A DNA stretch of 64,000 nucleotides from Roseivirga sp. E12 (lineage in GTDB: Bacteria; Bacteroidota; Bacteroidia; Cytophagales; Cyclobacteriaceae): the NCBI RefSeq assembly GCF_017592825.1, contig NZ_JAGFMD010000008.1:186001-250000 (forward strand), written 5' to 3'. Position numbers and translations under genes: made by a program. The notes beneath the pieces were generated by a model, which was given only the letters and a program-made list of their open reading frames with translations, was not told the DNA's origin and ran no database searches. Each line of letters starts with the position of its first letter. The stretch's first letter is position 1. Of this stretch, positions 15,890 through 22,469 are shown piece by piece.

Positions 15890-16279
15890 ATGTCAATTAA
15901 ATTGGATTGGGATTCCTTATTTCAAAGAGCTTGGGAAGCACGTGAGAATGCAAGCATTCTAGGAAACACAAAAGTTGGCTCCGCACTGATAACAAAACAA
16001 GGAAACATTTTTGGTGGCTGTAATATAGAACAAACTTATAGAAACAAAGATATTCATGCTGAAGTGAATGCGATATCTACCATGGTTGGAGCTGGAGAGA
16101 AAGAGTTTCTAGCAATTGCCATTGTAGCACAAAGAGAATTTTTTACACCTTGTGGCACATGCTTGGACTGGATTTTTCAGTTTGGTGGGCCCGATACAAT
16201 TGTCGGGATTCAAAATTCTATACAAGGTGAAACTAAGTTTTATAAAGCATCAGAGTTAATGCCACACTACCCTTATTAA
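15890..16279 (+). CDS. Cytidine deaminase-fold zinc deaminase (HAE variant)
   Basis: 129 aa. The zinc-deaminase signature is complete: His56-Ala-Glu58 and Pro-Cys88-Gly-Thr-Cys91. The frame VGSALITKQGNIFGGCNIEQ resembles small cytidine deaminases (VGAAL...G.NVE), but those usually have Cys in the first zinc-ligand position (CAE); HAE is typical of dCMP deaminases and APOBEC-type enzymes. The substrate could be a free nucleoside, a nucleotide, or a nucleic acid base; this is not decidable here. It is in an operon with the DCD-fold gene (6-nt gap). It converges on the cytosine methyltransferase with a 4-nt overlap. Confidence 0.85.
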   Translation: MSIKLDWDSLFQRAWEARENASILGNTKVGSALITKQGNIFGGCNIEQTYRNKDIHAEVNAISTMVGAGEKEFLAIAIVAQREFFTPCGTCLDWIFQFGGPDTIVGIQNSIQGETKFYKASELMPHYPY

Positions 16280-17235
16280 TTGGCGTGTTTAAGCATTTCA
16301 TTGGCTAACTCCCTTATAACATTGACTGCAACGCTGTTTCCAAATTGACGATACAATTGCGCATCAGAGACTTCTTCGGGCAAAATAAAGTCTTCTGGAA
16401 AGCCTTGAAGCCTAGCACACTCTCTCGGGGTCAACCTACGTGGATTAAGCCCGTCTTGCTGTATTAATATCTCACTACCATCTTTATAGTATCTGGCACT
16501 AAGTGTATTAGCATAGGGTGAATCATGATTAAACAGGCTGTAGCCGAAACCCTTTCCTTTTAACTTATTCTCCCTTTTTCTTCTTCTATGACCTTCCCAC
16601 AATTTGTCTGAAATTGTATAACGGTCATCAACTACATCGGATAAAATATCACCTAATCTAGTCGTGTTGTTCTCGTCAGGAGTAGGAAATTGGAATTCAA
16701 CATTATGATTTAAAAAACCCACTATATACACTCTTTCCCTATTCTGTGGTAAGCCAAAATCTCGAGCTCTCAATACTTTCCAGTAAACTTTGTAGCCAAT
16801 GTCCTCCAAAGTTTCCAAGATAATTGAGAATGTCCGTCCAAACCTATCACGTTTGTCCTGCTTGTCATGCCCAACTAGTTGTTTAACATTTTCTAACAAA
16901 AACATTTGAGGCAACTTACTCCGTAAGACCCTCTCAATATCAAAGAAAAGAGTCCCTCTAGTATCATTAAAACCCTGTTTCTTACCTGCCTGACTGAACG
17001 GTTGACAAGGAAACCCTGCTAAAAGGATATCATGATCAGGTATTAACTGAGTCTCTACTTGGGTAATATCTCCAAAAATAACCTCATCGGGGTAATTAGC
17101 ATTATAAGTTTTCACAGCATATTTATCCCATTCTGATGTAAAAACACATCTAGTTTCGAAATTAAAGCCCTCTGAAGCTTGTTCAAAGCCCCTTCTTATC
17201 CCACCAATTCCTGCAAAAAGATCTACAACATTCAT
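16276..17235 (-). CDS. DNA (cytosine-5-)-methyltransferase of a type II R-M system
   Basis: 319 aa with the ordered m5C motifs: I DLFAGIGG (5-12, SAM binding), IV GFPCQPFSQAGK with catalytic Cys77, VI LLENV, VIII QNRERVYIVGF, and X GNSVAVNVI near the C-terminus. The target-recognition region (~175-260) lies between VIII and IX. It methylates cytosine to protect host DNA from the partner nuclease. The ATG overlaps the end of the endonuclease gene by 4 nt, so the pair is translationally coupled with R upstream of M. The exact site is not readable from sequence; an EcoRII-type CCWGG or CCNGG site is a guess from the partner. Confidence 0.95.
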   Translation of the reverse strand: MNVVDLFAGIGGIRRGFEQASEGFNFETRCVFTSEWDKYAVKTYNANYPDEVIFGDITQVETQLIPDHDILLAGFPCQPFSQAGKKQGFNDTRGTLFFDIERVLRSKLPQMFLLENVKQLVGHDKQDKRDRFGRTFSIILETLEDIGYKVYWKVLRARDFGLPQNRERVYIVGFLNHNVEFQFPTPDENNTTRLGDILSDVVDDRYTISDKLWEGHRRRKRENKLKGKGFGYSLFNHDSPYANTLSARYYKDGSEILIQQDGLNPRRLTPRECARLQGFPEDFILPEEVSDAQLYRQFGNSVAVNVIRELANEMLKHAN

Positions 17236-18128
17236 TTACTAGTCCAATAATTTAAGGTATGAGGTATTTCGTCCTTGAACAGAGTGTCAAAGTCAATGAC
17301 GTTATCGTAATTCTCGTATTTTGTTTTAATCCAATGGTAAGTCACAACCGTAATATTCTGAGATTTCATTTGTATCAAAACGCCTTCTGTAAGCCCCTCA
17401 TCCAATGTCAAAAGGTAAATGTGAGGAATATTTGTCCTGTTCAACTCTTCTACAACCTCTTGCCACCTTTCTCTCAAAGTAGTCTTCATTGTAATTATAA
17501 GACACTTGCTTCTATTTTGCTCATAGGCTTGCCGGCTCGGAATTACACCATCAACCATCTTTCCCACTCCATTTTCAGAGTAAAATTTCGTACCTAAGAC
17601 TGCTTGATTTTCGTAAGGGTAATTATAAACCCTTGTTATAAAGAAGTCTATTAGCGCTTCAAAAGTCGAACCCGCCCTTGACCTTCTTGAGTTCGTAGTG
17701 CTCAAACTTAGTTGATAAATATAAGGCATAATACGCCCTGCAAAGTCACCTACAACCAGACTAAGTTTGGCAAACAATTCACTTTGATTAAATCGATTCT
17801 CTTCAAGTTCTGACAAGAGGTTGTTTTCTATAACTTTTTCAAGAATAGTTCTAGGTATATCCCTGTGCATAACTAAATGGGAAATAACCTCTTTATGAAA
17901 ATTCACCTCATCCTTTAAGTAAATATTCCAACAATTCTCACGTAGGGTGCTTATAGAACTGGATATATCGTCTTTAAATCGAGACGAGTCTCCCAGTTCA
18001 TCTCCAGTGACCTTAAACACGTAGTAAGACGGTTTCCTTACAATGTTATTTCTAAACCCTTGAATTGTAGCCTTCCACCATTTCAATTCATCTTCGGGCA
18101 GGTCGAAAATTAGTGTAATGTCACTCAT
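17232..18128 (-). CDS. Type II restriction endonuclease, EcoRII C-terminal domain-like
   Basis: 298 aa. Residues ~147-290 carry the EcoRII-C pattern: RRSRAGSTFEALI (Glu157), VDGVIPS with Asp193, TMKTTLRERWQEVVEEL with Lys215, then IYLLTLDEG. This gives a D...K PD-(D/E)xK centre and the basic K-TT-x-R-W segment typical of the family. EcoRII itself is about 400 aa with an N-terminal effector domain; here the first ~145 residues are a different, shorter module, so this looks like a stand-alone catalytic form. It is the first gene of a two-gene operon with the methyltransferase. It is AT-rich relative to flanking housekeeping genes. Confidence 0.85.
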   Translation of the reverse strand: MSDITLIFDLPEDELKWWKATIQGFRNNIVRKPSYYVFKVTGDELGDSSRFKDDISSSISTLRENCWNIYLKDEVNFHKEVISHLVMHRDIPRTILEKVIENNLLSELEENRFNQSELFAKLSLVVGDFAGRIMPYIYQLSLSTTNSRRSRAGSTFEALIDFFITRVYNYPYENQAVLGTKFYSENGVGKMVDGVIPSRQAYEQNRSKCLIITMKTTLRERWQEVVEELNRTNIPHIYLLTLDEGLTEGVLIQMKSQNITVVTYHWIKTKYENYDNVIDFDTLFKDEIPHTLNYWTSK

Positions 18129-20805: not shown

Positions 20806-20824
20806 CACACCCAATTCAAGAATG

Positions 20825-20938
20825 CCTAGGTGGCGGTCCCGAACCTTCAGGAGGTAGACCGCTACTCAGGCACAAGCACCAGCCCAGGTGGCGGCCCCGA
20901 AGCTTCGGGGGGTAGCCGTTGCTTAGGACAAATACCAG
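20825..20938 (+). repeat. Two tandem 56-58 bp repeats resembling the tRNA-Leu 5' end
   Basis: Unit 1 (20825-20882) and unit 2 (20883-20938) align along their whole length, and both end in ACCAGC. Each starts with C(C/T)AGGTGGCGG, then a 16-nt segment (CCCCGAAGCTTCGGGG in unit 2, a perfect palindrome), then GGTAG(A/C)CG. The tRNA has CCAGGTGGCGG-AATT-GGTAGACGC. So each unit looks like the first ~25 nt of the tRNA with its D-loop replaced by a hairpin. The remaining tRNA arms are absent. Confidence 0.8.
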
Positions 20939-21019
20939 CCCAGGTGGCGGAATTGGTAGACGCGTTGGTCTCAAACACCAATGCCTTCGGGCGTGCCGGT
21001 TCGACTCCGGCCCTGGGTA
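20938..21019 (+). tRNA. tRNA-Leu (anticodon CAA)
   Basis: 82-nt class II tRNA. The acceptor stem GCCCAGG/CCTGGGT has a G-U first pair and discriminator A at 21019. The D arm contains AATTGGTAGACGC. The anticodon stem TTGGT/ACCAA encloses CTCAAAC (anticodon CAA, reads UUG). A long variable arm TGCCTTCGGGCGT and T arm GCCGG-TTCGACT-CCGGC complete the fold. The CCA end is not encoded. A hairpin terminator starts 13 nt downstream. Confidence 0.96.
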
Positions 21020-21031
21020 CATAAGCGATAG

Positions 21032-21116: not shown

Positions 21117-21133
21117 ACTCCGGCCCTGGGTAC
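21117..21133 (+). repeat. Second copy of the tRNA-Leu 3' end
   Basis: The 17 nt ACTCCGGCCCTGGGTAC are identical to 21004-21020, the 3' end of tRNA-Leu. This copy also forms the right arm of an outer inverted repeat GCCGGAG/CTCCGGC (21072-21078 and 21118-21124) that encloses TCCCGAT/ATCGGGA. A further hairpin terminator follows, so the unit 'tRNA tail plus terminator' occurs twice. Confidence 0.85.
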
Positions 21134-21368: not shown

Positions 21369-22469
21369 ATGAATTTTCGAAAAAAAAAGCTTCTGTATCA
21401 TCCCGAGGATCCAAAGAAAATCATAAGATCCAATAGTGGCCACATAAAATTTGAAATTAGAGAACAGGGTAACTGTTGGATTTTAAAATGTCTAGGCGAT
21501 TTAATTGGAGAGAATGATGGTCCAATACTAATGGAAGAATTAAATTCTAGAGGGATTTTATACGATTTTGGAATAGTGGATATAGAACAGGTTAGGTATG
21601 TTAATTCCGCAGGACTTGGTGTTCTTATTACATTATTGACAAAGTTTAGGAATAATGGAGGAGAATTGATTTTGTTATCACCTTCTGAACACATGACTAG
21701 ACTTTTGGAAATAACTAAACTAAAGGCAGTTTTTTCAATAGAGGAAAGCCTTAATTCTGCCAAAGATAAGTATGACCTAAGAATTGGTGATGATAATGAG
21801 GCTATGATGGGCTTAACCCTGATCGATGGAAAACTTAGTTGCGTATCATTATCGAAGCAAGATGGACAATTTAAAGTGGTCGAAGCTACAAGCGAGAAAA
21901 TATTTGATATCCTAAGGACTTATCGATCTTATTCGTCATCAGTGAAGGAAAAAATAGAAGAGTTTGAATATCTGATTAATAAAAAGAATGTGCGGGAACA
22001 AGAACTGCACTTTTTCTTTGAAAAGAATCCAGACTTCTTACTTTTCAATGATAACTATCACAAGCTGAGGTCAAAGATTGTATTGGAAAGTACTGAGGGT
22101 AATTTAATCCCAGATTTCGTTCTCGAACCATATGATGATTATTACTCAGACCTTGTTGAACTAAAACTCCCTACAAAGAAAATATTCTCTGGAACGAATA
22201 AAAACAGAATAAAATACTCACAAAATGTTGCGGAGGGAATTGCACAACTCAGAACATATTCAAATTATTTTCAAGATTCGAACAACAGAAACATTGTAAA
22301 GAGCAAATATGATATTGAGATTTACAAACCCACAATGTATCTCATCATCGGAAGAACAACTGATCTTGATCCTGCAATAAAAAAGGATGTTAATTACGAG
22401 TTGCCAGATAATTATGAAGTTATTTCTTATGATCAAATTCTTAACCGCTATGAAAGAAAACACAAATAG
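21369..22469 (+). CDS. STAS domain-Shedu (DUF4263) nuclease fusion protein
   Basis: 366 aa, no membrane segment. Residues ~22-130 form a STAS/anti-sigma-antagonist domain: CWILKCLGDLIGEN, then YVNSAGLGVLITLLTKF and GGELILLSPSEHMTRLLEITKL. Ser80 matches the phosphorylated Ser58 of SpoIIAA. A linker (~135-200) follows. Residues ~205-366 match the DUF4263 PD-(D/E)xK core of Shedu: Glu212 in the helix EQELHFFFEKNPDFLL, Asp249 in IPDFVLEP, Glu264-Leu-Lys266 in DLVELKLP, Gln293 and Tyr297 in GIAQLRTYSNY, and YLIIGRTTDL. Shedu (SduA) proteins are single-gene antiphage nucleases with variable N-terminal domains. Here STAS would be the sensor or regulator (inference). The gene is AT-rich, stands alone, and lies just downstream of tRNA-Leu. 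Confidence 0.82.
   Translation: MNFRKKKLLYHPEDPKKIIRSNSGHIKFEIREQGNCWILKCLGDLIGENDGPILMEELNSRGILYDFGIVDIEQVRYVNSAGLGVLITLLTKFRNNGGELILLSPSEHMTRLLEITKLKAVFSIEESLNSAKDKYDLRIGDDNEAMMGLTLIDGKLSCVSLSKQDGQFKVVEATSEKIFDILRTYRSYSSSVKEKIEEFEYLINKKNVREQELHFFFEKNPDFLLFNDNYHKLRSKIVLESTEGNLIPDFVLEPYDDYYSDLVELKLPTKKIFSGTNKNRIKYSQNVAEGIAQLRTYSNYFQDSNNRNIVKSKYDIEIYKPTMYLIIGRTTDLDPAIKKDVNYELPDNYEVISYDQILNRYERKHK

Follow-up and report, generated by a model that had tools for sequence, protein, structure and literature searches.

A gene joining a STAS domain to a Shedu-type nuclease domain in Roseivirga sp. E12

Shedu proteins are nucleases with diverse N-terminal domains (PMC12904381, PMC12137116, accessible text of both), and these domains regulate the core according to the accessible text of PMC12137116. 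In our reading of the papers, the family has one common nuclease and differing sensors, and a signal has been assigned to few of the sensors. Gu et al. 2025 (Mol Cell) reportedly sorted the Shedu N-termini into 79 types and eight classes. A gene in a 64,000-nucleotide stretch of the Roseivirga sp. E12 genome (the window) has a STAS domain at this position, which raises the question of what a STAS domain might do on a Shedu nuclease. STAS chemistry is understood: RsbW-type kinases phosphorylate a serine of the domain, and SpoIIE-type phosphatases remove the phosphate.

Two domains in one reading frame

The initial annotation described the gene as a fusion of a STAS domain with a Shedu (DUF4263) nuclease, and Pfam, PADLOC and Foldseek all agreed with this description. 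The joining of the two in one gene is, with near certainty, real. The features of the gene are listed below.

21369..22469, + strand: STAS-Shedu fusion gene, 366 aa (open reading frame, Pfam, PADLOC)
21450..21761, + strand: STAS domain, residues 28-131, grouping with fur-purA STAS (PF01740, tree, conservation, Foldseek match to RsbV 6m36)
21606..21608, + strand: codon of Ser80, the equivalent of RsbV Ser56 (alignment to 6m36_B)
21804..21938, + strand: stretch between the domains, residues 146-190, predicted to form three beta strands plus a helix (AlphaFold2, pLDDT about 46-57)
21939..22466, + strand: Shedu PD-(D/E)xK nuclease domain, residues 191-366 (Pfam SduA_C, profile match to 8ti8/8ps4, Foldseek match to 8ti9)
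22113..22115, + strand: codon of catalytic Asp249 (32/32 aligned Shedu cores)
22158..22166, + strand: catalytic Glu264-x-Lys266 (E in 32/32 and K in 27/32 aligned Shedu cores)
22245..22247, + strand: codon of conserved Gln293 (32/32 aligned Shedu cores)

The open reading frame (21369-22469, + strand) starts with ATG and comprises 366 codons in a single unbroken frame. In Pfam, PF01740 (STAS) matched residues 28-131 (E 3.3e-12, 46.6 bits against a cut-off of 22.6), and PF14082 (SduA_C) matched residues 209-358 (E 1.5e-13, 51.7 bits against a cut-off of 27). Furthermore, nine PADLOC models of SduA matched the protein, with a best E-value of 1.2e-19, and the NCBIfam model TIGR00377 (ant_ant_sig, the anti-sigma factor antagonist superfamily) matched the STAS half with a score of 56.5 against a cut-off of 53.45.

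An AlphaFold2 model of the fusion protein was built from an alignment of 16 rows (the fusion protein and 15 Shedu cores from viral contigs), and it had a mean pLDDT of 65.6 and a pTM of 0.52. Counted from residue 191, 12 of the 18 ten-residue blocks of the nuclease half had a pLDDT above 85, and the lowest had 62. The blocks of residues 21-130 in the STAS half showed low values of 34-64 because the alignment contained no STAS rows, and the single-chain model gives no fixed placement of the STAS domain relative to the nuclease. In the Foldseek search, the B. cereus Shedu nuclease 8ti9 ranked first (E 3.4e-6, probability 1.00, target-normalised TM 0.71) and B. subtilis RsbV 6m36 ranked third (E 5.4e-5, probability 1.00), so that the structure check recovered the fold that had been proposed for each half. 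Residues 146-190, between the STAS domain and the nuclease, had no Pfam match; this region, modelled at low confidence, may be a transmission element.

Two trivial sources of the fusion were rejected. The G+C contents of the two halves of the gene are nearly equal (32.8% and 33.4%), which speaks against two sequences having been joined in assembly; together with the single frame, this ruled out an assembly chimera. A chance domain match was ruled out by the Pfam E-values and by the Foldseek matches for both halves.

The Shedu core alignment consists of 32 rows, the fusion protein and 31 others; L024 and L050, which are copies of the fusion locus, and a second, short fragment of L053 were left out. 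Ser80, D249, E264, K266 and Q293, the residues singled out in the initial annotation, are all in place by alignment. A profile of 13 cores matched three solved Shedus (8ti8, 8ps4 and 8ti9), each with an E-value no higher than 5e-27. The protein scores above the curated domain cut-off, carries the PD-(D/E)xK residues, is predicted to adopt the fold of a solved Shedu and has a distinct N-terminal domain, all of which place it in the Shedu family. It resembles the type I Shedus (B. cereus SduA 8ti8/8ti9 and the effector 8ps4/8ps5) in its nuclease core, its catalytic residues, its distinct N-terminal domain and its organization as a single gene. However, no STAS match was returned for these type I proteins (8ti8/8ti9, 8ps4/8ps5), whereas residues 28-131 of the fusion form a SpoIIAA/RsbV-type STAS domain.

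The nearest nuclease in the family sample, at locus L147, shows 34% identity to that of the fusion over 115 residues. Its N-terminus differs from that of the fusion and, by eye, resembles that of L142. A related nuclease with a different N-terminus suggests that the nuclease stays while the sensor is exchanged. The N-terminal regions of L147 and L142, both near nuclease relatives, had no Pfam match, and their common region is another candidate Shedu sensor.

Rarity and genomic setting

Other fusions of this kind were sought in several genome samples, which overlap and all count the own genome. The full-length fusion was found in the own genome only, both among 99 relatives (1/99) and among 395 genomes of the class (1/395), the class search being one that a distant fusion could escape, since its threshold was E 1e-24 and no more than five first-look candidates were scored in each genome. 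The C-terminal half had matches in 4 of 390 genomes of the order, the own genome included; the three others carry no STAS, and one of them (L027) is not a Shedu by profile. SduA_C itself was present in 28 of 395 genomes of the phylum and in 30 of 390 of the family.

We fetched 87 other Shedu-match loci (L025-L057 minus the own L050, L095-L117, L118-L120 and L121-L149) together with roughly 1.5 kb of sequence past the nuclease (a longer stretch for L118-L120, a shorter one at contig ends). Several viral loci among them are near-identical, and five second-copy matches from the phylum and family SduA_C searches lie outside this set. A Shedu core was detected by profile in 86 of the 87 loci, and a STAS domain in 0 of the 87 by a profile that was built from close STAS domains and could overlook distant ones. 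Nor did Pfam report a STAS in the 19 of these 87 proteins that were scanned with it.

Searches of mobile elements with tblastn gave six plasmid records, none with both halves, and no match in phages. Peptide patterns applied to IMG/VR found nothing when taken from the entire protein, from two pieces of the Shedu or from the STAS alignment, and those derived from two Shedu alignments found 7 and 16 loci. The single find of a contig pattern search with the fusion was a metagenome STAS; the patterns did not lie on conserved stretches, and therefore the misses of this search mean little. In the literature, the sole match for Shedu with STAS was a review whose main text has no STAS passage, and the sole match for STAS domain, anti-phage and nuclease was the CapKS paper (PMC13373217). 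Among the matches listed in a broader search, none had the Shedu and STAS terms together. The novelty suggested in the initial annotation held in that no second fusion was found among the 87 loci, but it is narrowed by the diverse Shedu N-termini and the STAS/kinase immunity already published. With one known copy of the fusion, there is no sign that selection maintains it.

The fusion gene sits between a tRNA-Leu and a large, presumably PorU-like gene that encodes a Peptidase_C25 domain. Two features mark the tRNA side of this interval.

20938..21020, + strand: tRNA-Leu (CAA), edge of the variable interval (ARAGORN, Rfam)
21117..21133, + strand: 17 bases identical to the 3' end of the tRNA-Leu at 21004-21020 (repeat comparison)

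The G+C content is 33% for the fusion gene, 33-39% for the other genes of the interval, 43-44% for the flanking core genes and 41% for the 64-kb window. We read the region in eight genus-mates: the contents of the interval differ, and the adjoining core genes are kept. The interval holds three other genes in G001, six genes including a C5-methyltransferase in G002, and one other gene each in G011, G018 and G003. It has no ORF longer than 82 aa in G008, and in G009 the large gene is missing as well. In G016, it contains a block that opens with a serine recombinase, and the stretch read stops short of the large gene. We read the tRNA-Leu interval as a cargo hotspot and the fusion gene as A+T-rich cargo.

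The 17-base copy may be interpreted as an att-like scar. Just upstream of the tRNA-Leu, two related 34-base stretches (20824-20857 and 20882-20915, families D1 and D3) are like its 5' part, and together with the 3'-end copy they could be repeated scars at one tRNA. The serine recombinase of G016 (Resolvase and Recombinase domains, L091:10327-11946) abuts the same tRNA-Leu and is followed mostly by small genes; its block is a candidate integrative element using the tRNA-Leu site. A promoter scan gave 7 promoters against 7.1 expected. The genes downstream of the fusion (hydrolase-like, others without a clear family) were considered as parts of the system and rejected.

About 3 kb upstream of the fusion gene, beyond core genes, lies a type II restriction-modification pair (16276-18128, - strand), in which a C5-cytosine methyltransferase stands next to an EcoRII-C-domain restriction enzyme. 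This neighbouring pair, the intact active site of the Shedu core, and the carriage of the gene as A+T-rich cargo in a variable interval that contains a cytosine methyltransferase in one relative make it very unlikely that the fusion is not antiphage at all, namely a housekeeping or toxin-like nuclease under stress control, or an intact gene without a role. Such a reading would fit with its being a singleton in the genomes searched and with the overlap of stress and immunity pathways described in the accessible part of PMC13373217.

Ancestry and conserved residues of the STAS half

The own genome also encodes a stand-alone STAS protein between the Fur and PurA genes, which is 48% identical to the fusion over residues 26-131. 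When the full fusion protein was compared with the 99 genomes, the own one included, 86 gave some match at E 0.001, and among the matches listed all but the fusion itself end by residue 182. At the best 19 loci outside the own genome, Fur and PurA both lie beside the STAS gene in 18 and PurA alone in one. The STAS genes of this group lie at L002:1480-2293 and in L005-L023.

A tree of 23 STAS rows was calculated, with L024 and L050 (copies of the fusion locus) and a single weak antisense match in L011 omitted. The fused copy fell among the fur-purA rows at the end of a long branch, of 2.09 changes per column, and its fork (82/86) is open, so that these rows gave no sure branching point for it. 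With a long branch and an unsure fork, descent of the fused STAS from the fur-purA STAS group is likely, though unproved. The long branch also implies that its partner may have changed.

Among 20 stand-alone fur-purA-type rows, 41 columns were conserved at 90% or more. The fused STAS keeps 35 of them, and its remaining six changes are conservative. Of the same 41 columns, two other STAS proteins, L003 (a paralogue from the own genome) and L004 (a metagenome protein) keep 14 and 19, respectively, and leave-one-out comparisons of four members of the fur-purA group gave 35-37 kept of 37-40 columns. Outside the conserved columns, identity to the own-genome fur-purA paralogue is 14/64 for the fused copy, 14/67 for L004 and 8/67 for L003. 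A core that is kept amid drift elsewhere suggests that the fused domain still functions as a STAS. Part of this conservation is due to constraint on the fold, and much of it may serve the fold alone.

In RsbV, Ser56 is the residue that RsbW phosphorylates, and D23, Y53, S56, R84/R87 and I91 are bonded to RsbW (PMC7340262, accessible text). The equivalents in the fusion are Y77, S80, His108, R111 and I115, four of the five being identical and R84 being replaced by His108; D23 lies outside the aligned stretch, and the chain numbering of 6m36_B was taken as the residue numbering minus one from the matching letters. Equivalents of Tyr77, Ser80 and Ile115 are present in every STAS row compared, including L003, L004 and the SpoIIE-adjacent STAS, which indicates a competent STAS and no particular partner. 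As evidence for a given partner, the kinase-contact positions are thus weak. The residue before Ser80 is Asn, as in 18 of the 20 fur-purA rows, versus Asp in RsbV.

The STAS half passes the STAS and ant_ant_sig cut-offs and has Ser at the phosphosite position, as expected of an anti-anti-sigma (RsbV/SpoIIAA) protein. It shares the STAS fold and the phosphosite Ser with RsbV and SpoIIAA (PDB 6m36, 1tid); however, those proteins stand alone and control sigma factors, whereas the STAS of the fusion is joined to a nuclease. On sequence grounds, the fusion is probably a single-protein Shedu-type nuclease that senses through a STAS domain related to the fur-purA anti-anti-sigma-type protein.

The relationship to one specific housekeeping STAS, with fur and purA beside it at 18 of 19 loci, also bears on the idea of an integrated decoy, in which the fused domain would mimic the fur-purA STAS and a phage protein or phage-caused stress hitting the host switch would fire the nuclease. 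The host retains its own 48% identical fur-purA STAS, and His108 is common to 16 of the 20 fur-purA rows and to none of the three other STAS proteins (L003, L004 and the SpoIIE-adjacent STAS), in line with such a decoy. However, the same data are compatible with ordinary partner-switch gating, and we know of no phage factor that attacks the fur-purA STAS switch; we regard the decoy as quite improbable. It also seems unlikely, if less so, that a Shedu captured a copy of the housekeeping STAS as a decoy and that the stress-signalling phosphorylation state of the host, beyond phage DNA alone, licenses cleavage.

Candidate partners and control of the nuclease

The own genome contains 21 HATPase_c_2 matches (E up to 0.1) and two SpoIIE phosphatases. 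Two of the HATPase_c_2 genes, on contigs C29 and C32, are strongly RsbW-like. One lies directly after SpoIIE and STAS genes, so that SpoIIE, STAS and HATPase genes are consecutive at one place in the genome. The other, which is unlinked, lies beside ybeY (L058:1486-1899). Contig C34, which carries the fusion, has none of the 21 HATPase_c_2 and neither of the two SpoIIE matches, and no adjacent GHKL kinase gene of the CapKS/VapKSC kind was found near the fusion gene. Partner-switch control of the fusion is plausible, since its STAS groups with an anti-anti-sigma-type family and keeps the columns of that family, and since the genome has RsbW-type kinases and SpoIIE phosphatases.

Known systems offer precedents for such control. 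The variety of Shedu N-termini presumed in the initial annotation is borne out by the accessible text of PMC12137116, which includes VcSduA, a Shedu with an N-terminal GHKL ATPase whose ATPase and nuclease residues are both needed for defence. Like VcSduA (type I-D), the fusion has a Shedu core beneath an N-terminal signalling-type domain, but this domain is a STAS instead of a GHKL ATPase; GHKL-type kinases act on STAS proteins in partner-switches. In PMC13373217 (2026), as far as its accessible text goes, the ssDNA-activated kinase CapK phosphorylates the STAS protein CapS, which de-represses immune operons, and in VapKSC the nuclease VapC is held by a STAS protein, VapS, which fails to hold it when Ser48 is changed to the phospho-mimetic Glu. 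The fusion shares with these systems a STAS with a conserved Ser, which serves there as an immune input and, in VapKSC, as a direct inhibitor of a nuclease. However, CapKS and VapKSC, as described in that text, consist of separate genes with an adjacent kinase, whereas the fusion is one chain with no kinase on its contig; VapC is described there as a PIN-domain nuclease, and the nuclease of the fusion is of the PD-(D/E)xK type.

From this comparison, we tentatively propose that the STAS domain gates the Shedu nuclease through Ser80 under a host kinase or phosphatase, an account to which we give somewhat less than an even chance. In an uninfected cell, the STAS domain would keep the nuclease in an inactive assembly. 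Infection or DNA damage would alter the state of the kinase/phosphatase switch, upon which an RsbW-like kinase of the host, encoded elsewhere, would bind or phosphorylate Ser80, or a SpoIIE-type phosphatase would strip its phosphate. The altered surface at Ser80 would then rearrange the assembly and free the PD-(D/E)xK domain to act on DNA. The fusion would thus be a one-chain analogue of VapKSC, with inhibitor and nuclease joined and the kinase borrowed from the host.

The lack of a kinase or phosphatase partner gene on the contig of the fusion counts against this account and would suit a different role, in which the STAS domain serves mainly for structure or oligomerisation, or binds a nucleotide or lipid ligand, the Shedu core itself senses DNA ends as in characterised Shedus, and Ser80 is an inherited relic. 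E. coli Shedu senses DNA ends by an N-terminal clamp, with no kinase mentioned in the accessible part of PMC12904381, and a STAS domain serves otherwise in MlaB of an ABC transporter (PMC7367683, accessible text). The three kinase-contact positions kept across all STAS rows compared fit this role as well, but the retention of 35/41 conserved columns against 14/64 elsewhere seems, in our judgement, beyond the needs of a scaffold. We consider a structural role possible but rather doubtful, and STAS gating through Ser80 is the best supported account ahead of it.

The joining of STAS and Shedu suggests that a defence enzyme may be wired to the kinase signalling of the cell itself. The sensor of the fusion has a fold of understood chemistry, and its own genome offers identifiable candidate partners. 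Single-residue variants could therefore directly probe the working of a Shedu sensor. Gating of the nuclease by phosphorylation, if it occurs, would tie general stress signalling to an immune effector that cuts DNA on one polypeptide chain.
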